Below are positions 434 to 19,487 of a stretch of 20,160 nucleotides of DNA, piece by piece. The stretch is from a virus. A model generated the notes under the pieces. That model was not told the DNA's origin, ran no database searches, and worked only from the letters and a program-made list of their open reading frames with translations. Both the position numbers and the translations under genes were made by a program. The stretch lies in the IMG/VR virus record IMGVR_UViG_3300000405_001202, positions 1 to 20,160 of that record, one strand, 5' to 3'. The stretch's first letter is position 1; each line of letters opens with the position of its first letter.

Positions 434-3400
434 CTACCGAACAGGACAGACCCCTGTTGTGCATTCTGAATTATCTAATTCATGTTCTTCTTCTCTTATT
501 TCATATTTTTGTAAAAGCTCTGGATTAAACTCTTTCATTTTAGAGCGTCTAATTTCATATTCTTCTTCTGTTATTGCCTCATAAGGAAGTAACTGAAAAA
601 AACTATTATCTAAACTTATAAATGTAATTCCAATTATTATATCCCAATTATTATAAACCCACTCAATAACACCATTCCATTCATTAGGTCTAACATGAAT
701 AGTATTAGAAGCATTATGGTCTACATAATTTTTCATTACCATTTTATAAATTTCAAGTTGCTCTATTGCGGAGACGTCGTATTTAGTTCTACCTTTTGGG
801 GATTCAACAGGAAACTCAATAACTTTAGTTCCACAAGTTTCAATATTTTGTCCTACTTCTGGAAATATTGGATAACCAAGTTCTTCACATACTTTAACCA
901 ATGGGTCAGAAGAATTAATTCTGATTCGCCTAATATAATAGCGTGAATGTTGGAAATGTAATCCACTTGAAACCGTTGGTAATTGGCTTAATGTTCCTTC
1001 TGGTTTTATTGAAGTTACTAGTTCTGGTCTATTTAAACCTAAATCGTCCGCATATTGATTAGCTTCGTCATTTGCTACTTTCCTCATTTCTTTTAAAACC
1101 TCTGTCTGTTCTTCTAGTGACATATCTGTTGCATTTACCATATCAAACCAACCAGTAAAAGAACAACCAATTAATCTATCTCTAGATTGCATATAATTCC
1201 ATTCTGGTAACTCTAGTTCCATTGTAGCTATCCTATATCCAGCTCTTGCGGATAATTTTTGAGCCTCATATAAAAGTTCTTTGTCTAATTTGCCATTTAT
1301 AACAAAAGCCATAACATTTACTGTCGTTAAATTACAAAATTGTTCAGAGTCTAGAAGAATTTCCCCACAATTTCCTGTGTAGCAATGTTGAGAAGGAAAT
1401 ACGTGCTGTTCATGAAGTACTGTAATATCCCATACTGGCTCTTCACTTCTCTTTGTTATAGTATTTAAAACTATGTAGTTTCTATCTACTATATCATTTT
1501 CAGACATAAAATCGTCTATGTATTCTTGTTTTCTTTTTGCCGTTAATGTGAAAATATTATTAAATCTTTTTGATTGAGACTTCGATAGATATACCCCATA
1601 TATAGTGTATAATTTCTCGTAGTCTTTTCCATTTGGAAATGTAATTTTTCGTTCACAGCTTTTTATATTAGCTGAAATACCATAGAAACTCAATAATTTT
1701 TGAACGTCTTCCGCTAATAATTGTTGGCTTGTCGTTAATTGCACTCTTATACTTTTTCTATTTTTATCTACGTCTATATTACCGTCTGTTGAGAACAGTC
1801 CGTCAATAAAACCTAAACAGTAATTATCACCTTCTGTCCATATTTTTATTGGTAGTCTCTTTCCTTCTTTAGATAATGGCAATCCTAAAATTTTTATTAA
1901 ATAATCATAAACAAAATCTTGTCTTCCAAAGTTTGTTTCTTGAGACTTATCTTCTTTATTTCTTCTATTCCATGTTAATGTTAGTCCCGTCATAGAATAA
2001 TAATGTTTATCAACAAAGCTTTTCAGCTCTAAGTCTAAGTCGGAAATTGTCAATGAGGCAACATATCTATTATCGTCACTTCTTTGCGTAATTGACCCGT
2101 CCCCAAGCATTATACCAGCAAACAGTCCGTCTTGATAAGAAAGTTTTTTAGAGTATCCTTGTAATTCATTTCTATTTAGTGGAATTTTGTCGCCCTTTTG
2201 TAATTCTGAAACTTGTTTTCTTACTATTTTCCCATTTTGTATAACTGGAAATTTATGTTTTGACGTCGCATATGTATGTCTGTTACCTTTAAAGTCTAAA
2301 TCGAATACTTCCGCATTGTCACTAGATAACCAACATTCGGCTTTTGCAATATCCCCATTTAAAGTTTTGACGTAGAATTCCTTACCTTCTAGTTCGTTTA
2401 TATGGAATATACCTTCTATTGTTTGAACTAATACGTCTTTTGGCATAGAAGGATTACAACCTTTAACATTACGTTTCCTAAGTCTAGCACTAGCAAGATT
2501 GTAGAAATTACCTTCCGCACTTAATTTAATTGTTTCAAATCTAAGTTTTAGGTCTTCTAATGAAGGTTTAGTATAATAAGAAACTGAATTATTACTCATC
2601 ATTCTATGTAAAATTTCACCGTTTGACTTCCATTCACCATTTTCTTGAATATAAAGATTTGACTTTGCTTCCATAACTTCTTTATCGTCATGGTCAAACA
2701 AGCACATTTCAGCACTTCTTCTAACACCACCTACAACGATTCCTTCCGCTATGATATTCGCAATATCCATTGCTTCTATAGGCTTTAATTTTTTATAGCC
2801 TTCATTATTCTTAATTAATATTGCATATGTTTTATCAATAATAGTTTTTAAGGCTTCATGTCCACTTGCGGTACCCCCGAAAGTTTTTAATGGCTCCCCT
2901 TTAGGTCTGACATTATTATAATTAATCATAATATGATTTATATTTTTGAAGTCGATTGCATAAAACGCTTTTAAAAAATAATCAATAGCATTAGCCCAAC
3001 CCATTTTTGAGTCCCCAACAATAATTTCTAATACGTCAGCTACAACATTGAACTCAGTGTTTTCTTTTCTTTTGCTTTTATTTAAAATTGGTGTGTAATA
3101 AAGTTGGTTTAATTTAATACTTCCACTGATTTTGGGAAGTTGATTTACATATTCTCTTTCAACAGAAAAACCCACCCCAACCCCAAGCATTAATAAATAG
3201 CAAAAATCTTTGTAAATATTGAAATTATCAATTACCGCAAATGCACAGTTGAACTGTGAAATCGGATTAGTATAAGACGTGGCGGTTCCCCCACTCCATA
3301 AAGTTCTTCCAGATAAGAACTGTCTTAAATTAAACATATTATCAAAGAGGCTTTCCGCTTCTTTTTGAGTGGTTCTTGGTTGTAAACTACAATTAAAATC

Positions 3401-3868
3401 AATCGCTCTTGCACAAGTTTCCCACCAATATTCTCTTCTCTTTTTTTCTGATATCCATCTTGAGTATGTTCTGTAATATACTAAATTACCTAGTTCCGTC
3501 ATTGGGGGTTTAATATGTTTATATTTATTTAGAAAATCTTTTGAAAGTAAATTATACTTGATAGTTTCATTTGCTTCTAATTCTCTACGTTCAGCTTGTT
3601 TATTTCTAAATAATATGTATTTTTTAGCTATATTACCTAGCCCATATTTCATTAATAATTGTTCAACTCTGTCGCTTATATCTTCAACATTAAAAATATA
3701 GTCACTATCCTCCATTTCTTCTAAGATATCATTTTCAATATTATCTATTATATCTTCAACCATTTCGGTATCTTCTACTTTTGCGTCAATTAAAGCCATT
3801 TTTATAGCTAAAACTATTTTACTTCCGTCATAATCCACTATAGTTCCGTTTCTTTTTTTTATTTGCAT
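434..3868 (-). CDS. nrdJ: Class II (adenosylcobalamin-dependent) ribonucleoside-triphosphate reductase, interrupted by an intein
   Basis: The protein reduces ribonucleotides to deoxyribonucleotides using a B12-generated thiyl radical. The 1144-residue precursor would be 784 residues after intein removal, near the roughly 740-residue monomeric Lactobacillus RTPR plus an ATP-cone. Residues 1-95 form the ATP-cone. The pair of active-site cysteines appears as C207 (FNCAF) and C845 (FCNLTTVNV). C834 with E836 in CNP/CGE is the radical cysteine and its acid; the C834-C845 spacing matches C408-C419 of RTPR. The tail carries CTTGVC, matching the RTPR C-terminal CX4C redox pair. Residues 474-833 are the intein. 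The ATG is preceded by AAAGGGG at 13 nt, unusually far. It lies 62 nt after the HPr-like gene and likely shares its promoter. The absence of a separate small subunit fits class II. Confidence 0.95.
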   Translation of the reverse strand: MQIKKRNGTIVDYDGSKIVLAIKMALIDAKVEDTEMVEDIIDNIENDILEEMEDSDYIFNVEDISDRVEQLLMKYGLGNIAKKYILFRNKQAERRELEANETIKYNLLSKDFLNKYKHIKPPMTELGNLVYYRTYSRWISEKKRREYWWETCARAIDFNCSLQPRTTQKEAESLFDNMFNLRQFLSGRTLWSGGTATSYTNPISQFNCAFAVIDNFNIYKDFCYLLMLGVGVGFSVEREYVNQLPKISGSIKLNQLYYTPILNKSKRKENTEFNVVADVLEIIVGDSKMGWANAIDYFLKAFYAIDFKNINHIMINYNNVRPKGEPLKTFGGTASGHEALKTIIDKTYAILIKNNEGYKKLKPIEAMDIANIIAEGIVVGGVRRSAEMCLFDHDDKEVMEAKSNLYIQENGEWKSNGEILHRMMSNNSVSYYTKPSLEDLKLRFETIKLSAEGNFYNLASARLRKRNVKGCNPSMPKDVLVQTIEGIFHINELEGKEFYVKTLNGDIAKAECWLSSDNAEVFDLDFKGNRHTYATSKHKFPVIQNGKIVRKQVSELQKGDKIPLNRNELQGYSKKLSYQDGLFAGIMLGDGSITQRSDDNRYVASLTISDLDLELKSFVDKHYYSMTGLTLTWNRRNKEDKSQETNFGRQDFVYDYLIKILGLPLSKEGKRLPIKIWTEGDNYCLGFIDGLFSTDGNIDVDKNRKSIRVQLTTSQQLLAEDVQKLLSFYGISANIKSCERKITFPNGKDYEKLYTIYGVYLSKSQSKRFNNIFTLTAKRKQEYIDDFMSENDIVDRNYIVLNTITKRSEEPVWDITVLHEQHVFPSQHCYTGNCGEILLDSEQFCNLTTVNVMAFVINGKLDKELLYEAQKLSARAGYRIATMELELPEWNYMQSRDRLIGCSFTGWFDMVNATDMSLEEQTEVLKEMRKVANDEANQYADDLGLNRPELVTSIKPEGTLSQLPTVSSGLHFQHSRYYIRRIRINSSDPLVKVCEELGYPIFPEVGQNIETCGTKVIEFPVESPKGRTKYDVSAIEQLEIYKMVMKNYVDHNASNTIHVRPNEWNGVIEWVYNNWDIIIGITFISLDNSFFQLLPYEAITEEEYEIRRSKMKEFNPELLQKYEIREEEHELDNSECTTGVCPVR
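1370..2449 (-). mobile_element. Intein with LAGLIDADG homing endonuclease inside NrdJ
   Basis: A 360-residue in-frame insertion runs from Ser474 (SMPKDVLVQT, splicing block A) to Asn833 (HCYTGN), and the next host residue is Cys834. Removing it joins CNP to CGEILL and recreates the family motif NPCGE. Block B is visible as ATSKHKFPV (TxxH type) and block F as VWDITV followed by HVF. Two LAGLIDADG helices carry the metal-binding acids: FAGIMLGDGS and LGFIDGLFSTDGN, so the endonuclease looks intact. The penultimate residue is Gly instead of the usual His. By family knowledge, splicing would use Ser1, Asn833 and Cys+1. Both junctions are precise from sequence alone; activity is inferred. Confidence 0.93.
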
Positions 3869-3892
3869 GTTTTTTAGTATTCCCCTTTAAGA

Positions 3893-3930
3893 TTAACATT
3901 TTTGCGTTAACATTTTTGCGTTAACATTGC
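3893..3930. repeat. 14-bp tandem repeat between the HPr-like gene and nrdJ
   Basis: On the plus strand the unit TTAACATTTTTGCG occurs twice (3893-3906, 3907-3920), followed by a partial third copy TTAACATTGC (3921-3930). Each unit contains GTTAAC once tandemly arranged. It fills most of the 62-nt gap upstream of the reductase start, so it could be a regulatory site or simple slippage. It does not look like an NrdR box. Confidence 0.85.
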
Positions 3931-4200
3931 TTACGACTTTCTATTGTTAAAAACACATATTTTATTTAATGCTGTTTTTAACTTTATCAAATTTTCCGCT
4001 TCCCCCATAAAATTCAGTGTATATTTACTATTGAAACTTCCCACTAAGCATAATACCCCTAGAATAGATTTAGCGTCAATAACATATGCACCAATACACA
4101 AGTCAATGTCCTCAGTAAATTTCGTACATATATCTACAAAAGACACAAGTGCTATTTGAAATTTTTCTTTTGGAATAAAATTAAATTGCTCAGTATACAT
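3931..4200 (-). CDS. HPr-like protein lacking the phosphorylatable histidine
   Basis: This 89-residue protein resembles the HPr phosphocarrier fold, in particular a short clostridial variety. The recognisable part is FVDICTKF at 21-28, DIDL at 31-34 and YVIDAKSILGVLCL at 39-52, which aligns with the HPr segment around Ser46 (the regulatory phosphorylation site). The region where HPr has its catalytic His15 contains no histidine, so it probably does not carry phosphate in the PTS. AAAGGAG lies just before the ATG, and a strong promoter lies about 45-70 nt upstream. It is the first gene of the transcript leading to nrdJ and dut. Its role is not known; a regulatory mimic of host HPr is possible but unproven. 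Confidence 0.65.
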   Translation of the reverse strand: MYTEQFNFIPKEKFQIALVSFVDICTKFTEDIDLCIGAYVIDAKSILGVLCLVGSFNSKYTLNFMGEAENLIKLKTALNKICVFNNRKS

Positions 4201-4243
4201 ATTTATCTCCTTTCGTTAAGATTTGATTAGCTATTACTCTCTT

Positions 4244-4272
4244 ATAATAACATATTTAAGAGTAAAAGTCAA
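4244..4272 (-). promoter_or_regulatory. Sigma-A-type promoter for the HPr-like/nrdJ/dut unit
   Basis: The minus strand reads TTGACT (4272-4267), a 17-nt spacer, then TATTAT (4249-4244), each one mismatch from consensus. It lies in the 119-nt gap upstream of the gene starting at 4200, on the correct strand. Confidence 0.8.
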
Positions 4273-4319
4273 TAACCTTATCGAAAGTAAATAAGAGAAA
4301 ATTAAAGTGAAGCTTTTAA

Positions 4320-4673
4320 TTATACAATCTTACAAAGTTTTAATCTAGTTTGTTCAATCCCCTCAAACCAATCATAGTCAATTACTGTTCCCATAAGACT
4401 TATCACGTCCCCTATATTGTAAAAATGGCAATCGTAATTTTCATTATCTAGTTTATATAATGCTTTTTTAGTAAACCAAAAATAAACGTTCCAATTATCG
4501 TCAATAAACTTATGACAATATGAAAGCCCAAACTCATTGTTAAATTGGTGTTTATCTATTACTCTTAGATTGTTCAAAACAATTTTATCTTTAATATTGA
4601 ATTGGTATTTACTTTCAAAACGGTTCTCTTTATTTTTATTTTCTTCGTCATAATCAAATTCCTCGCAACTCAT
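4320..4673 (-). CDS. Conserved phage protein, probable OB-fold
   Basis: The gene encodes 117 residues. The first 20 or so are acidic and charged (EEFDYDEENKNKE) and look disordered. The remainder has the pattern of small phage proteins in which a beta-rich body ends with a segment like GDVISLMGTVIDY, a bulky residue pair, then a short strand with EQTRLKLCKI. This resembles the KGTV...GxxQTxLTRCK tail seen in OB-fold-like phage replication proteins. AAAGGAGG precedes the ATG with 7-8 nt spacing. It follows the ABC/acetyltransferase gene by 29 nt and is probably cotranscribed. Nucleic-acid binding is inference from the fold resemblance; no catalytic motif is visible. Confidence 0.6.
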   Translation of the reverse strand: MSCEEFDYDEENKNKENRFESKYQFNIKDKIVLNNLRVIDKHQFNNEFGLSYCHKFIDDNWNVYFWFTKKALYKLDNENYDCHFYNIGDVISLMGTVIDYDWFEGIEQTRLKLCKIV

Positions 4674-4702: not shown

Positions 4703-5845
4703 TTATTTTATTTTAAGTTTTCTCATTTCCCCAATTGGCAAAAGCAAATGTTCAAATCCACTAATTTTTTTACCCACATATTCATGTGCGTAAGATATTC
4801 TTGTAACTCTGTTTTTATACTTTTCATTGTCAAATTGCTCTTCTTTTCTACCTTTTCCATTATATGTAGTGCCTCTCCACTTTGGACTATTATTAAAATA
4901 CTCCCCTAAAGCGGGATTTACTGTTTTTATATATAGTTTATGTCCGTTGTTTATAAATATTCCACCAACAAAATTACATATTTTACTTCCAATCCCCATA
5001 CCTTGATAATCAGGTAATACAACAATTCTACTAATAGCTACAGCTTCACTTCTACCTTTTCCTGGGGTATTTAATATACCACAAAAAGCAACGGGTTTAT
5101 TATCCCACTCAAACAGTAAAAATTTACAGCTTTTGTTTACATTTTCTGTTAAATAATGATACTGTTTGAAGATTTTCCAAGTATCTGGCTCTGTTCTACT
5201 AATTTGTAATTCAATTTCTGGCTTTCCTTGCCGAAGATAGTCATGTTTTTGCAACATGCCTCCATTGGAAGGTGAACAAGTCCAATCTGGCATAAGCCAT
5301 TCTAAGATATCATAATGACAACTTGCAAGAATAATTCTTTTATTTGTTTTTCTTATGTATTTCTGTAAGGCGTAACTCATTGCTTTAGCAACGTCCCTAT
5401 CAACTACTGACGTATATTCGTCAATAAGTATAACGTCATTATTATCAGTTTTCGCAACAATATATGCCAAACTAGCTCTATATTGTTCCCCATTACTAAG
5501 TAGATTAAAAGGTCGTAACCAAGTAGGGACTGACGACAATCCCATAGAAGTTAATACTTTAGTAGCGTCTTCTGGGGATAGCCAATCGAAATTACTTATT
5601 AAGGATTTAGTATTATCAAACTCAGCTTTCTTAATACTATTCTTTGCTAATTTATTTAGTATTGTGGATTTACCAGAACCACTCCCCCCAATTATAATTC
5701 CTATATTCCAATTAAATGTTTTCGCTTCCCCAAGATTGTAAAATACGTTAGTAATTGTTTCTTCTTGATTTTGTATATCAAAAGCATTATATATATATTC
5801 ACTATATAAATCATTTTTTATATTGCATTTTAATTCGATTTTCAT
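4703..5845 (-). CDS. ABC-type ATPase fused to GNAT-like acetyltransferase domain (COG2401-like)
   Basis: The 380-residue protein has two domains. Residues about 1-200 are an ABC ATPase: Walker A GGSGSGKST at 53-61, signature LSNGE at 116-120, Walker B VILIDE at 138-143 and an H-loop histidine at 177. Residues about 215-380 look like a GNAT acyltransferase, with YHYL at 229-232, strand-rich SRIVVLPD at 272-279 and the acyl-CoA loop YQGMGIG at 280-286. No membrane segment is present, so it is not a transporter. The fusion matches what I recall as COG2401. The GNAT part, with its HYL segment, recalls the Mom DNA-modification acyltransferase of phage Mu, but this link is inference. AAGGAG precedes the ATG, and the gene lies 21 nt after the 90-residue protein gene. 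The substrate is unknown. Confidence 0.82.
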   Translation of the reverse strand: MKIELKCNIKNDLYSEYIYNAFDIQNQEETITNVFYNLGEAKTFNWNIGIIIGGSGSGKSTILNKLAKNSIKKAEFDNTKSLISNFDWLSPEDATKVLTSMGLSSVPTWLRPFNLLSNGEQYRASLAYIVAKTDNNDVILIDEYTSVVDRDVAKAMSYALQKYIRKTNKRIILASCHYDILEWLMPDWTCSPSNGGMLQKHDYLRQGKPEIELQISRTEPDTWKIFKQYHYLTENVNKSCKFLLFEWDNKPVAFCGILNTPGKGRSEAVAISRIVVLPDYQGMGIGSKICNFVGGIFINNGHKLYIKTVNPALGEYFNNSPKWRGTTYNGKGRKEEQFDNEKYKNRVTRISYAHEYVGKKISGFEHLLLPIGEMRKLKIK

Positions 5846-12800: not shown

Positions 12801-12955
12801 CATTTATACCCTCTCTTTCGAGATACTTTAACACTAATTTAATAGTGGGATTAGACTATATCTTCTATTTATCTTTAATAAATAGTGAATGCGCTTCGAT
12901 GTAGTGCTTAAATCTACATCTACTTCCTTGCGGAATAGTCGTTAAACCTTTTATC

Positions 12956-13619
12956 GTACAATATATCAGCGATTAACCCATTCTTTTTTCCAATAGTATC
13001 CTTTATATTTCTCGTTGTTTCTACAAGCTTTACCTAATGCGGTATGTCCTTTTGTATTTAAGAATTGAGTTGCCATTTTAACTGAATTAAATGTTTTAAA
13101 TACATTACCATTATCGTCCAATGCAACAACTATCCTACCATTTACGGCATTTTCGTCTTTCTTATCATACATACCATTATTTATTCCAGAGGTTGCTAAT
13201 CTCATTTTATCTTTAAACTCATTAGAAGAATAATCAAACCCACTTGCTTGTCTTGATTCAGATAGTCTTTGCTTTGTATTTTGCGTGTGCGTATTACCTT
13301 GTTTCATATTATACATAGCATTTCCCTCTTCTAGTAATTTTTTAGTCCAATATGCCTCAATTATAAAACGATGCTTAATCAAACTAGTATCTAAAGCAAC
13401 CATTATAAAATCTTTTTCGTCTTGTTCCAATAGGTCACTATATAGAAGATATTTATCAAAATCTGTCTTTGACTTATGAAGGTGTGCACAAAATCTTTCT
13501 TCTAGTGTTTTTGTTGTAGAACCAACATATATGTAATTATTTTTAATATTTGTTATTTTATAAATTATCGCTAATCTTTCGCTCATTTTATATCCCCTTT
13601 ATATCGAGATATATTGTAC
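12956..13619. repeat. 12-bp perfect inverted repeat enclosing the intron 2 ORF
   Basis: GTACAATATATC (12956-12967) and its exact complement (13608-13619) bracket the GIY-YIG gene. They would extend the intron's P6 stem and loop the ORF out of the ribozyme core. The ORF's stop codon (12968-12966) overlaps the inner end of one arm. Confidence 0.88.
12966..13586 (-). CDS. GIY-YIG homing endonuclease within polymerase intron 2
   Basis: This 206-residue protein would cut intron-less alleles of the polymerase gene and so spread the intron. The N-terminal GIY-YIG domain reads IIYKITN...YIYVGSTTKTLEERFCAHL at about 7-36, with catalytic Arg in EERF; the conserved Glu is probably in FIIEAYW near 78. 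The middle is polar (NTKQRLSESRQ and similar), typical of NUMOD-type linkers. The C-terminus, VVALDDNGNVFKTFNSVKMATQFL...ALGKACRNN, is an IENR1/NUMOD1-like DNA-binding helix-turn-helix, ending KGYYWKKEW. AAAGGGG precedes the ATG. The TGA stop falls in the stem that closes the P6 loop. It is intact, unlike the copy in the RecJ intron. Confidence 0.92.
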   Translation of the reverse strand: MSERLAIIYKITNIKNNYIYVGSTTKTLEERFCAHLHKSKTDFDKYLLYSDLLEQDEKDFIMVALDTSLIKHRFIIEAYWTKKLLEEGNAMYNMKQGNTHTQNTKQRLSESRQASGFDYSSNEFKDKMRLATSGINNGMYDKKDENAVNGRIVVALDDNGNVFKTFNSVKMATQFLNTKGHTALGKACRNNEKYKGYYWKKEWVNR

Positions 13620-13821
13620 TGTAACTTGGCTCGGTATTACCAACTATCCTATTAAAATAGGACTTTAGGCTTTCTTAGTCAGTGGCTTCGTCTTTTTTAT
13701 ATCTATAATCCCCTTGTAAGGCATGTATAGAAGTCTTATTCAACTGATACCGATAGCATATAGATATGATTATCTATACACACCCTCTAGCGAGGTTCAC
13801 ACTCAATGCCCAATATTGTTC

Positions 13822-13846
13822 AGGCAACTCTGGTCTTAATTTGCTT
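13822..13846 (-). CDS. dnaE: DNA polymerase III alpha subunit, exon 2 (micro-exon)
   Basis: Between two group I introns lies a fragment whose in-frame codons read SKLRPELP, matching the residues that precede PDIDIDF in C-family polymerases. Its downstream edge is firm: T at 13822 pairs with the intron 2 guide. The upstream edge is less sure; intron 1 must end in G, and G at 13847 (exon from 13846), 13849 (exon from 13848) or 13844 all keep the frame with different exon 1 ends. The exon is therefore about 22-27 nt. No open reading frame caller would find it, but without it the polymerase lacks a conserved segment. Confidence 0.82.
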
Positions 13847-14188
13847 CGCTTATACTTTATGTTTCCATAAAGGCTAGACTATATCTTCACCCTCAACTTA
13901 ATGATTGGGTGTTTTGCGCTTCAAATGGTGGTTATTATCCATCTTACTCCCCTTTGGGATAGTCGTTACACCTTCAAAAATATTTTTTATTTTTGCTTGG
14001 CACGGTATTATCATATCTTTTCGGACTTAGACTTTCACCGTTAGCATAGAATTAACTAAACACCACGTAACCAACGTGTTCACAAAACTTAACATATTAT
14101 ATTACTATAATATTCCCCTATTGTATTTTTCTAATGACTTTAAACTTTGATATCTCTCATGAGAGCGTAAAAGTTTAAAATTTAAGCT
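13847..14188 (-). mobile_element. Group I intron 1 of the polymerase gene, ORF-less
   Basis: An intron of about 340 nt separates PHWRHL... from KLRPELP. Core elements are clear: GCTAACGGTG and ACCGTGCCAAGC (P4 region), AACGACTATCCC with AAAG and GGGAGT (P7 plus a small hairpin), CACCC/GGGTG (P8), GATATAGTC (P7 3' strand), and a CTTTAT/ATAAAG P9 with GGAAAC loop. The ends are uncertain: T at 14195, 14194, 14189 or 14185 could be the 5' splice site, and no convincing internal guide pairs with any. The coordinates given assume T14189 and G13847, which yields HLKVSKLRPELP. Confidence 0.82.
14139..14179. repeat. Nested inverted repeat at the 5' end of polymerase intron 1
   Basis: TTTAAACTTT (14139-14148) and AAAGTTTAAA (14170-14179) are perfect 10-bp arms, and the loop holds a perfect 12-bp palindrome CTCTCATGAGAG (14154-14165). 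It lies where P1/P2 of the intron would be expected. It may be an elaborated P2, or an insertion hiding the guide sequence. Confidence 0.8.
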
Positions 14189-15686: not shown

Positions 15687-16208
15687 CTAAAAAACATCTT
15701 CAAAAGATAATTCATCCTCTGTTTTTTCTAGTCTTTCCTCACTATAGAACGAAGATATTTTAACTTGAGGATATTTATTACCTTCGTACATATTAAATGT
15801 AAAATGTCCTATAATGGTAATCTTAAGTTTCTTTTTATTTTCCCCTAAGATGTTTCTATCTGATTGCGTTAATTCATCTATATCCCCTTTTGAGCAATAA
15901 TTTTTAATAAAGTCAACGTCATTAAATTTAAATTTAATAAAACCATTGTGCTCCCCATAACCTTTAATATCTTTTGCGTCAACGTCAACATCTGTAATTA
16001 CAAAATTAGGCTCGTCAACTTGATTTCCCCAAATCGCATATGCCTCTGCAACTTCGCTTATTGCTGAGTTTTTTAGGTTTGAAGCTTTAATTTCATAATC
16101 TACTTCATGAACAGTAACTAAATCTTCCTTGCCTATCTTATTATTACATAAATTTCTAACTTTGTCAATGTTTTTATCGCAAATCTCTATACCAAAAGCT
16201 CCAGCGTG
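15687..16208 (-). CDS. recJ: RecJ-like single-strand DNA exonuclease, exon 2
   Basis: This exon adds 173 residues beginning HAGAFGIEI, the second half of the DHHA1 motif; joined to exon 1 the motif becomes AGHAGAFGIE. The remainder (EAYAIWGNQVDEPNFVITDVDV and KLKITIIGHFTFNMYEGNKYPQVKISSF) has the look of the RecJ OB-like C-terminal domain, and the tail is acidic (EKTEDELSFEDVF), as in proteins that dock on an ssDNA-binding protein. An ATG at 16211-16209 exists only because the intron ends in ATG; it has no good ribosome site. The stop is 27 nt before the polymerase start. The complete spliced protein would have 655 residues. Confidence 0.92.
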   Translation of the reverse strand, partial: HAGAFGIEICDKNIDKVRNLCNNKIGKEDLVTVHEVDYEIKASNLKNSAISEVAEAYAIWGNQVDEPNFVITDVDVDAKDIKGYGEHNGFIKFKFNDVDFIKNYCSKGDIDELTQSDRNILGENKKKLKITIIGHFTFNMYEGNKYPQVKISSFYSEERLEKTEDELSFEDVF

Positions 16209-16343
16209 CATGTGGAATCCATTGTTTCCAATGGCACAGACTATCTCTTACATATTTTACAGTAAAAAACTTAAAATATGCACACCCGTTTCGATTTTCA
16301 AAGGCTTCGTTTCCTAGAACCTTGCCACGTATCAGTAGTGACT

Positions 16344-16705
16344 CTACTTCCCTATTAAGGGAATAGTCGTTACAGGATTAGTTGTTATATAATTATTTTT
16401 TAATATATTTTTTTCTAGTTCATTATAGTTTTCCCCATAATCTATCATTTCAAAGATAAAACTCTCTATTCCATACTTTACTATTGCTCTCTGTGAACTA
16501 CACATGACTAAAGTCACGTGCTTCCCGCTCAAGCCAATTCATCTCATGAATGAATTCACGAGAGTTTTTGACAATTTTTTTAAATAGCCGAAGAATTTTT
16601 TGCCATTCTTCTATGGTCTAGGAATCTTTTTTTTAGATTACTTGTTTGAACTACATATGACTTTCCATTAATCTTATTAGTAATTTTATATATATATTTT
16701 TTCAA
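16344..16705 (-). pseudogene. Decayed GIY-YIG homing endonuclease in the recJ intron
   Basis: Two fragments of one gene remain. The first (16705-16583, possible TTG start after AAGAGG) gives 41 residues, YIYKITNKINGKSYVVQTSNLKKRF and on to NSSAI, then a stop. The second resumes at 16493 with QRAIVKYGIESFIFEMIDYGENYNELEKN and runs into the intron core, where it stops at 16344 after about 50 codons. Removing 16582-16494 joins NSSAI to QRAIVKYGIESF, the normal continuation of such domains. Further decay: the YIG glycine is Val (YVVQT), there is no ATG, and the rest of the endonuclease is missing. The protein is very probably inactive. The intron could still splice. Confidence 0.85.
16494..16582 (-). 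mobile_element. 89-bp IS200/IS605-like mini-element (non-autonomous)
   Basis: This segment divides the intronic GIY-YIG gene. Its right end (minus strand) reads CACGTGAC-TTTA-GTCATGTG followed by TAGTTCA, the subterminal hairpin and terminus I associate with IS200/IS605-family right ends in Firmicutes. A second hairpin, CTCGTGAAT/ATTCATGAG, lies near the other side. There are no target duplications, as expected for this family, and no tnpA or tnpB gene. Removing exactly these 89 bp restores the ORF. It is either a MITE-like derivative or the remnant of a larger element. Confidence 0.75.
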
Positions 16706-16852
16706 TTAAACCTCTTGAAATCATACAACAACTTTCCCACGGGATTTCCATATCTATTTAAGACTTAGGGTTCCCCGTTAGCATATCATATACAAATATA
16801 GGATATACCCCTTACGATAATAAGGAAAAGGCATGTTCAGGCCATGATGTTA

Positions 16853-18298
16853 ACCTGCACACTTAATAAAGTAACCAGTAGAAAACATAAATTCTTTTAA
16901 GTTTTTAATTTTGCCTTTAGAATACCCTCTTGCGGAACCACCAAATATAATATCATCGTCTTTAAGTTCTTTAGTTGAATCTTCATTTACAATAACATCG
17001 GCTTTTTCAAGTTTTGAGTCATTATAATTATTACTATCGTCACCAATTTCAATATCCTCAATCACAGCCCCTTCCTTAAGCGTTACATTTTTGGCACCCA
17101 TTCTATTTAATATCAAAACAGGTCTTTTATATTTGTTGGTAAGTTTGTTAGCAACCAACCCACTTAAAGTTTTCTTTTTTAATAATTCAGTACCATCTAC
17201 AATAATAACTGAGTCTTGCTGTAATTTTTGAGATTCGATTTTAATGTCAATTTCTTTCATAACTTTTCTAACTTCTGTATCTTGTCTTGCTTTTGCATTT
17301 GCACTAACTCTAGCCATAGTCTTTTGCAATGAATGAGTTTCAATAGGTGGTTTAGGTAGACTTTTATCTGAGCCATTTGGTCTTCTAGGTTGATATGCTG
17401 AATCTTCGACTTCACCGCACATTGCTCTGAATAAGTTTAACTGTTCTTCTGGCTTGCCGTATCTCACGCACCCGTTAATTTTAGGGGCTAAAACCCAACC
17501 ATAAGATGTTATTGTATGTCCCAATTTCATATCGTCAGCAAATTTACTAGATAATTCTTTAATAAATAAGTTTTTTCTATTTTCTTCTTTAAGTCCTTCT
17601 AAAGTATAGTATCTAGTTTCTAAGTTTCTCATATCTACACTATCCGCTATCATACCTAAAGCCACTAAGTCTATAAATTGATTGGCATAGTTTTCGTTTA
17701 GTCCATATTTCTCGCAATAAGCCAAACAAAATTTATGTACAACCCCTACGCCAGATAATGTGGGGTTAGGGTATTGTCCGTCCATACAGTTAATTAATGT
17801 AGTATACGGTAATATTTCAGTAATAATCTCATGGTGGTCTAGTATTAATATAGGCGCTGTGAAATTCTCATTAATTAATAAGCATTCCTTTTCACTCTCA
17901 ACACTTGCGTCTGGAACTATAAATAAATCCACGTTCTCTAAATGTTTAATATCTTTATATAATAGACCATGTTCTTTATTTGTGTGAACGCTAAAAACTA
18001 CTTCTGTTTCTGGACTTACATCCGCTATAAATTGTACCATATAACTTGACGATGTATATCCATCTACGTCACTGTCTGGTTGTACATATATTTTCTTCCC
18101 TTTTCCTAAAGAATTATGAAATATATCTAATCCTTTATCTATGTTTTTAAATAAAGATGGGCTATGAGTATCGTTTTTATTTACATTTAAAAATCTTCCA
18201 ATATCCTCAATTCCTTTTGATTTTAGAATTGTTTCCATATAATCGTCATTTACGTCAAATTTACAATCGTGTTTTATTTTCCAATATAGTTTTTCCAA
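16853..18298 (-). CDS. recJ: RecJ-like single-strand DNA exonuclease, exon 1
   Basis: The exon encodes 482 residues of a DHH-family 5'-3' ssDNA exonuclease. Counting from the TTG start, motif I is QPDSDVDGYTSS near 73-84, motif II VPDAS near 128-132, motif III DHHE at 154-157, and ALGMIADSVD follows near 215. The DHHA1 domain ends the exon at FGGSARG...FIKCAG. I chose the TTG at 18298 because AAAGGAG lies 8 nt upstream and the codon comes one base after the primase stop; the ATG at 18349 lies 17 codons inside the primase gene and lacks a site. Family members need Mn/Mg bound by the Asp/His motifs, all present. Within the operon it probably trims single strands during phage replication or recombination, like YorK of SPbeta. 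Confidence 0.92.
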
Positions 18299-18299
18299 C

Positions 18300-19487
18300 T
18301 TATATTCTCCTTTTATTTGTTTGTTTTTTAGGTTCTTCATACCCTTCAATCTCTGTTGTCATTTCTACTTTGTTTTTCATTAAAAACTCTAGGACTTCTT
18401 GTCCTTTATCAAAAGGGGAGTCTTTAACGTCTAACTTTTTATATTCATCCCAAAGTACAAAAGTACGAAAATAAGGGGTTAATTTCTGTGCTAATGAGAT
18501 TATTCTTTTTTTATATGAAAGAAACTGTTTAAAAACGGCACTCTTAGCGTCCGCGTCTTCAAATGAAGTTATGTCGAAATCTTTGTCAAACCCTATAATA
18601 ATTTCTTCAACCCCTAAAGAAAGTAACGTCCTTATGTGCCACTTTGATATATTGAAACCACATGTTGCTATAACAAAAGTATTTTCGCCATAATATTCAT
18701 GTGCCAACAATACACTTTTCTCGGACTCTACAATAACAACCTTTCTTAATCTTTTAATTGTTTGTATATGTTCATACAGACCGTATAAATTTGAATTTAA
18801 AGGGTGCTCATACATTTGACCTTCTAGGATAAGTGGCATATATTTACTTTTTACGTTCTCTTCCAATAAGCTTCTTCTTCTAATACCAACTATTTTACCC
18901 TTTTGATTAAAATGTGGAATTATAACCGCTTTTTGAGACTCATACCATAAAATATTGAAGTCAATCATAGTTTTAAATCCAATACCTTCGTTTAACCATC
19001 CCTCATAGAATACGTCTTTCTCAAAATAATCTAATATGTTTGGATTTTTTATTCCTTTAAGAACAGTTAAAGGGGGGCTAGGTTTTTTATTTCTCATTTT
19101 AGTATATTTATTAATTATATTCATTTCTGAATTTATTTCTTTGTGGTTGTTTCTATTACTAGTAATACCAAGACCAACCCTCTGATTCATCCCAACTAAC
19201 TCCCCAATAAACTCAACAGCACTTGAGAACTCTACGCCTCTAACTTGCATAACGAAGTTAAATATACTCATTGAACCACATTCGGTATAGCAAAAGAATG
19301 TTTTGCTTTCCTCAAAATAGCATAATTTATTGCTTTTCTTAGTTAGGTCACCAGTATGACAAATTGTTTTAAACCATATTTGACCTTTTTCACTCTCGGT
19401 TTTAAAGGGATACTCCCCTTCCTCTTCCATTAATTTCAAGACATGTTGTGTTTCAAATCTCTCTAGCACATCGTCTTTATTTAACAT
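18300..19487 (-). CDS. DNA primase (zinc-binding plus Toprim, YorJ/DnaG-like)
   Basis: The 395-residue protein would make RNA primers for phage DNA synthesis. The N-terminal zinc-binding part has C43-H44, C66 and C70 (CYTECG), a variant of the CHC2 zinc site of DnaG. The Toprim catalytic motifs follow: E254 in VIVESEK, and D301/D303 in GFDKDFD. Between them AVIIPHFN...GKIVGIRRR fits the primase core. It is shorter than DnaG (about 600 residues), lacking the C-terminal helicase-binding domain, as in compact phage primases. AAGGAG precedes the ATG, 15 nt after the helicase gene. The recJ ribosome site lies inside its last codons. The neighbours match the SPbeta replication order, which supports the assignment. 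Confidence 0.88.
   Translation of the reverse strand: MLNKDDVLERFETQHVLKLMEEEGEYPFKTESEKGQIWFKTICHTGDLTKKSNKLCYFEESKTFFCYTECGSMSIFNFVMQVRGVEFSSAVEFIGELVGMNQRVGLGITSNRNNHKEINSEMNIINKYTKMRNKKPSPPLTVLKGIKNPNILDYFEKDVFYEGWLNEGIGFKTMIDFNILWYESQKAVIIPHFNQKGKIVGIRRRSLLEENVKSKYMPLILEGQMYEHPLNSNLYGLYEHIQTIKRLRKVVIVESEKSVLLAHEYYGENTFVIATCGFNISKWHIRTLLSLGVEEIIIGFDKDFDITSFEDADAKSAVFKQFLSYKKRIISLAQKLTPYFRTFVLWDEYKKLDVKDSPFDKGQEVLEFLMKNKVEMTTEIEGYEEPKKQTNKRRI

Follow-up and report, generated by a model that had tools for sequence, protein, structure and literature searches.

The 20,160-base stretch of a phage record analysed here (the window) contains an insert of about 87–89 bp that is very probably an ends-only, PATE-like IS200/IS605 element, made up of two end hairpins with almost nothing between them. 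Both of its ends are homologous to those of clostridial IS605-type elements, it contains no genes, and it interrupts a homing endonuclease gene within an intron of a phage DNA-repair gene, which is recJ-like. PATEs are gene-free units consisting of the pair of subterminal palindromes of an IS605-type element and are thought to be moved by a transposase acting in trans (PMC3119063, PMC7290912); the window insert is likewise short and gene-free, with IS605-like palindromic ends. On the minus strand it reads TAAAAAAATTGTCAAAAACTCTCGTGAATTCATTCATGAGATGAATTGGCTTGAGCGGGAAGCACGTGACTTTAGTCATGTGTAGTTCA.

The split recJ-like gene and its endonuclease

The insert lies within three nested features, all on the minus strand, as follows.

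16853–18349 (−): 5′ exon of a recJ-like gene, with the DHH domain (PF01368; phrog_2484, RecJ-like)
16209–16852 (−): group I-like intron of 644 nt, interrupting the recJ-like gene at the G/H junction of KCAG/HAGAFG
15687–16208 (−): 3′ exon of the recJ-like gene, with the RecJ OB domain (PF17768)
16580–16705 (−): 5′ piece of the endonuclease gene, 41 aa, from a TTG start at 16705 to a TAA stop at the insertion
16344–16493 (−): 3′ piece of the endonuclease gene, QRAIVKYG... to the stop, resuming at 16493 as QRAIVKYGIESF; the C-terminal DNA-binding region is absent

The intervening sequence is placed at 16209–16852 because unsplit recJ relatives read through the junction, with L057, L060, L063 and L064 having CAGHENAFG or AGHSNAAG at the position where the window is divided; the recJ relatives lacking the intron, from viral contigs, are 35–54% identical. 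As in group I introns, the end of the 5′ exon (CAGGT) is pairable with a sequence just inside the intron (GCCTG), the splice site would be marked by a U-G pair, and the last intron base is G. Rfam RF00028 matches the 3′ core (16218–16369) weakly, at 18.4 bits (E 0.05) against a cut-off of 50, and an Rfam search of the whole window gave nothing reaching the cut-off at the recJ-like intron, the core of which is seen only below it. Given this weak score, the group I assignment is likely but unproved by Rfam.

When the two endonuclease pieces are joined they match the GIY-YIG domain (PF01541, E 6.6e-07) and phrog_7168 (E 3.9e-15), although the glycine of YIG is replaced by valine. The first-pass annotation had delimited the same insert by reading-frame fusion, as 89 bp at 16494–16582, and had described it as an IS200/IS605-like mini-element in an intronic homing endonuclease. 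Cutting out the 89 bp does join SSAI to QRAIVKYGIESF in a single frame, and phage GIY-YIG relatives without the insert align across the site with no gap (L123, 43% over 81 aa; L127; and L124, which has NNSAIDRAIAKYG there). A phage search with the endonuclease at E 1e-5 gave no match, and the relatives used for this alignment are distant GIY-YIG genes from a looser search. The description as a mini-element in an intronic gene is upheld by the profile match of the right end (see below), by the recJ relatives without the intron and by the GIY-YIG relatives without the insert.

The endonuclease reading frame ends immediately at the insert, with a TAA at the junction, and the position of the insert is outside the ribozyme core of the intron. 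To judge from the valine in the YIG motif and the missing C-terminal DNA-binding part, the gene was probably weak already before the insertion. We considered whether the insert could be a translational bypass or splicing element, such that the 89 bp is skipped and a full endonuclease is made, as the restoration of the frame on its removal would allow. This is hardly credible, however, as there is a stop codon at the junction, the endonuclease had decayed in the two respects just mentioned, and the IS605 ends already account for the insert.

Several other features were noted beside the insert. A PolC-like polymerase gene (12803–14182, minus strand) is also interrupted; it has a strong group I intron match at 13855–14101 (66.4 bits) and a second, weaker core at 12833–12984 beside a GIY-YIG gene (12966–13586), and the relative L057 reads this gene uninterrupted. 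A ribonucleotide reductase ORF of 1144 aa (434–3868, minus strand) has an apparent intein-like insert, running from ...GCNPSMPKD to ...QHCYTGNCG as read from the translation, and a single ORF at 4703–5845 (minus strand) fuses an ABC-type ATPase part to a GNAT acetyltransferase part. The sister phage contig L002 has a LAGLIDADG-like ORF (1442–1735) in its DnaB-like gene region, and the phage may for this reason carry several intron- or intein-type elements.

Ends, extent and relatives of the element

Five features are assigned to the element and its insertion site.

16493–16579 (−): probable ends-only IS200/IS605 element of 87 bp, AAAAATTGTC...TAGTTCAC, placed by the family ends and target spacing
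16580–16584 (−): putative target pentanucleotide TTTAA beside the left end, placed by the hairpin spacing in relatives; the family has TTGAA or TTGAT
16543–16562 (−): left-end hairpin CTCGTGAA-TTCA-TTCATGAG (nhmmer, profile of nine left ends, 13.0 bits, E 0.022)
16501–16520 (−): right-end hairpin CACGTGAC-TTTA-GTCATGTG (nhmmer, profile of 15 right ends, 44.0 bits, E 5.8e-12)
16493–16500 (−): right terminus TAGTTCAC, placed by the right ends of relatives

The right end is the more strongly matched of the two. Its rightmost 36 bp match the IS200/IS605 right ends of Clostridia and Fusobacteria in the 15-end profile, against which no shuffled window scores above 6 bits, and there are 24–26 consecutive identical bases with IS605 right ends in Lachnospiraceae, Tissierella, Sebaldella, Clostridiaceae and others. 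In Peptoclostridium the same right end is directly behind tnpA-tnpB, it adjoins tnpB in L005, and it closes tnpA-tnpB elements in Tissierella and Sebaldella. The right subterminal hairpin is thus homologous to those of known IS200/IS605 members, and the first-pass reading of the terminus as a TnpA/TnpB right end is borne out. The motif TAGTTCA is not itself diagnostic, as its count in the window (six, with 3.9 expected) is unremarkable. The base after TTCA is a C in 22 of 23 genome copies, and this C was absent from the search pattern; the terminus is therefore given as TTCAC.

We note a 16 bp direct repeat (15 of 16 positions) between 16494–16509, in the right end of the element, and 16647–16662, in the endonuclease codons for SYVVQ, which is the position where relatives show YIG or YVG. 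A comparable pair of repeats is present in two of 300 shuffles of the intron, and the repeat could be due to chance or to conversion between element and gene.

In the left half of the element there is a second hairpin, which the first-pass annotation did not name. This hairpin, CTCGTGAATTCATTCATGAG, is identical at 19 of 20 bases to the left ends in L067 and in the phage element L137, and scores 13.0 bits against the left-end profile, whereas the best shuffle scores 7.5 bits. The match is weaker than that of the right end, and weak if taken alone, but supports homology of the left subterminal hairpin to that of the same IS605 family.

Parallels to the whole unit are gene-free relatives of about 165–175 bp that have both ends, L067 and L071 (one Clostridiaceae MAG) and L077 (Peptococcaceae MAG); longer ends-only relatives occupy several sites. 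L077 is positioned near the end of a rubrerythrin-like gene, and joining its flanks after TTTTGAA and after GGTTCAC gives ...CPVCAHPQAYFE-LISNNY-stop (...AYFE-LISNNY-stop in our translation), which we take to be the normal rubrerythrin C-terminus. The family target (TTGAA) and terminus (TTCAC) are fixed by this ending.

In most relatives a TTGAA or TTGAT target is 18–21 nt before the core of the left hairpin, the exception being the left end of L027, which has no TTGAA fit. The pentanucleotide found at this distance in the window is TTTAA, which differs by one base from the family target, and target duplication is absent at the insert; targets of IS200/IS605 elements are typically T-rich pentanucleotides (PMC4227781). 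Because relatives end in GTTCAC and have the target at this distance from the left hairpin core, the true boundaries of the element are probably 16493–16579 (87 bp), following TTTAA and ending in TTCAC, with an estimated uncertainty of about three bases at the left boundary and one at the right boundary. Rejoining at these boundaries leaves the endonuclease off frame by two bases, whereas removal of 89 bp stays in frame; the offset would be accounted for if the site changed slightly afterwards or if the target was a different one.

Three other phage contigs that are 99.96–100% identical bear the same insert, and it is therefore not an assembly error. Searches of 50,697 phages, 72,556 plasmids, 2.9 million viral contigs (by pattern scans) and 16 genomes or records gave no further copy of the complete unit. 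The first-pass annotation had stated that finding the 89 bp only here would refute the element, and for the whole unit this is formally the case; both ends have homologues elsewhere, however, and so the element stands.

There are also two very short, single-hairpin copies, in L073 (minus strand, near 2379) and L076 (near 1537), which finish like a right end with ...GTGACTTTAGTCATGTGAGGTTCAC; the left flank of the L073 copy resembles a left end. These are possibly products of recombination between the two hairpins.

Origin of the insert

The sister phage contigs G001, G019 and G020, all of which are fragments, gave no match to either the Y1 transposase TnpA (PF01797) or TnpB (PF07282). Among related phages, TnpB is present in G021 and G025, a degraded TnpB in G023 and TnpA in G022, and at these TnpA/TnpB loci there are no ends of the window element's subfamily. 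That neither gene was found in the fragmentary sister contigs makes mobilisation in trans plausible, and the element was most likely either mobilised in trans by a host TnpA or left behind by a full element after deletion of its core. On the first route a Y1 (HUH) TnpA of the host cell would recognise both hairpins in single-stranded DNA and insert the unit 3′ of the T-rich pentanucleotide, without target duplication; on the second, a full-length element would insert first and lose its core afterwards.

The second route is that of a remnant formed in place, where a complete tnpA-tnpB element inserted into the endonuclease gene of an ancestor of the phage and the unit never moved as a mini-element. 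We give this close to an even chance, if slightly under it. It would fit the lack of a second copy of the whole unit, and in Haloquadratum an IS605-type element is known to have been reduced to 52 bp by core deletion (PMC3119063); in addition, larger IS605-type elements or their genes are present in other phage contigs. However, a full element at this site was found in no phage, and gene-free elements with both ends are present independently in host-like genomes. Remnant formation is itself a form of the ends-only element, and that broader assignment has its own difficulties: the unit is known from a single site and its own mobility is thus only putative, the left match is weak, the putative target is one base off, and the family boundaries give a two-base frame offset unless the site has since changed, so that the exact empty site is putative as well.

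The first-pass annotation had also suggested that the element is either a stand-alone guide-like unit or mobilised in trans, and of these only the latter remains plausible. As a stand-alone guide RNA, a transcript of the insert ending at the right end would direct TnpB in trans to the flanking endonuclease sequence. The same right-end hairpin does close TnpB guide RNAs, and the sequence beyond it would be the guide. However, a TnpB guide RNA (reRNA or omega RNA) has a scaffold of about 130–150 nt at the right end, that of ISDra2 TnpB being about 150 nt (PMC8612924), and only about 36 nt of right end are kept in the window. The relatives L067, L071 and L077 retain a conserved stretch, GGTAGGAACTATCCGA...GAAGCAGGAA, in common with the 3′ region of full elements behind tnpB, and its position before the right-end hairpin suggests that it is the TnpB RNA scaffold. 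The window unit lacks this stretch, which argues against a guide RNA, as does the failure to find a TnpB domain in the fragmentary sister contigs; we regard the guide-RNA reading as very unlikely.

A further alternative is an IStron-like unit, in which the group I intron and the element would be mobile as one. The intron and the IS605 ends do share one location, and the phage element L137, with which the left hairpin is nearly identical, has intron-like sequence. The boundaries differ, however (16209–16852 for the intron, 16493–16579 for the element), the element is within the endonuclease frame, and it ends in TTCAC, whereas a group A IStron is a single inserted unit that lies downstream of a T-rich pentanucleotide and has TCAG as its terminus (PMC4227781). 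The separate boundaries and the TTCAC terminus contradict an IStron, which we consider extremely improbable, and they agree with the first-pass view that an element internal to the endonuclease gene is an arrangement unlike that of IStrons. The L137 element (2603–4402, minus strand) is a phage TnpB element that starts after TTGAT and ends in TTTCAG, with the intron-like sequence near its left end. This phage element is probably a group A IStron; no group I match to it reached the Rfam cut-off.

Comparison with known systems and implications

The kind of element is already known, and the window provides a new, PATE-like instance in an unusual nested location. It resembles the PATEs and other ends-only IS605 copies of Haloquadratum and Halanaerobium in having two palindromes only and no genes, but differs in being in a phage, in an intron-borne homing endonuclease gene, at one known site, and in its size. 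Compared with IS200/IS605 elements that have both tnpA and tnpB (in Peptoclostridium, Tissierella and Sebaldella), it has a nearly identical right end, a similar left hairpin and a putative T-rich target, but is without tnpA, tnpB and the guide-RNA scaffold; with no Y1/HUH TnpA of its own it is not an autonomous member. Group A IStrons of the CdISt1 type have related IS605 ends, a T-rich target and a group I intron alongside, whereas here the intron ends are not formed by the element, which lies inside the endonuclease gene and has TTCAC in place of TCAG. Phage group I introns with defunct homing endonucleases are known, lying in conserved replication or repair genes and carrying a degenerate endonuclease gene (PMC3984707), but the decay of the endonuclease here includes an insertion of IS605 ends.

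Since the insertion stops the endonuclease frame, the intron is expected to have lost homing by its own enzyme, and with the ribozyme core outside the insert splicing should persist. This would be one route to switching off the homing of an intron with its splicing probably retained. The selfish layers are nested, with the IS605 ends-only unit inside a homing endonuclease gene, the gene inside an intron, and the intron inside a phage gene. We offer as a speculation, which is itself rather unlikely, that clostridial phages act as vectors for minimal IS605 mini-elements mobilised by the host, and that these elements settle in homing endonuclease genes within introns. There splicing would hide them, and one selfish element would disarm another without cost to the phage. 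At about 87 bp with both hairpins, the unit is a very small natural candidate substrate with which the requirements of TnpA could be defined, and it cautions against taking every TnpB-type right end in raw sequence as a sign of a guide RNA.
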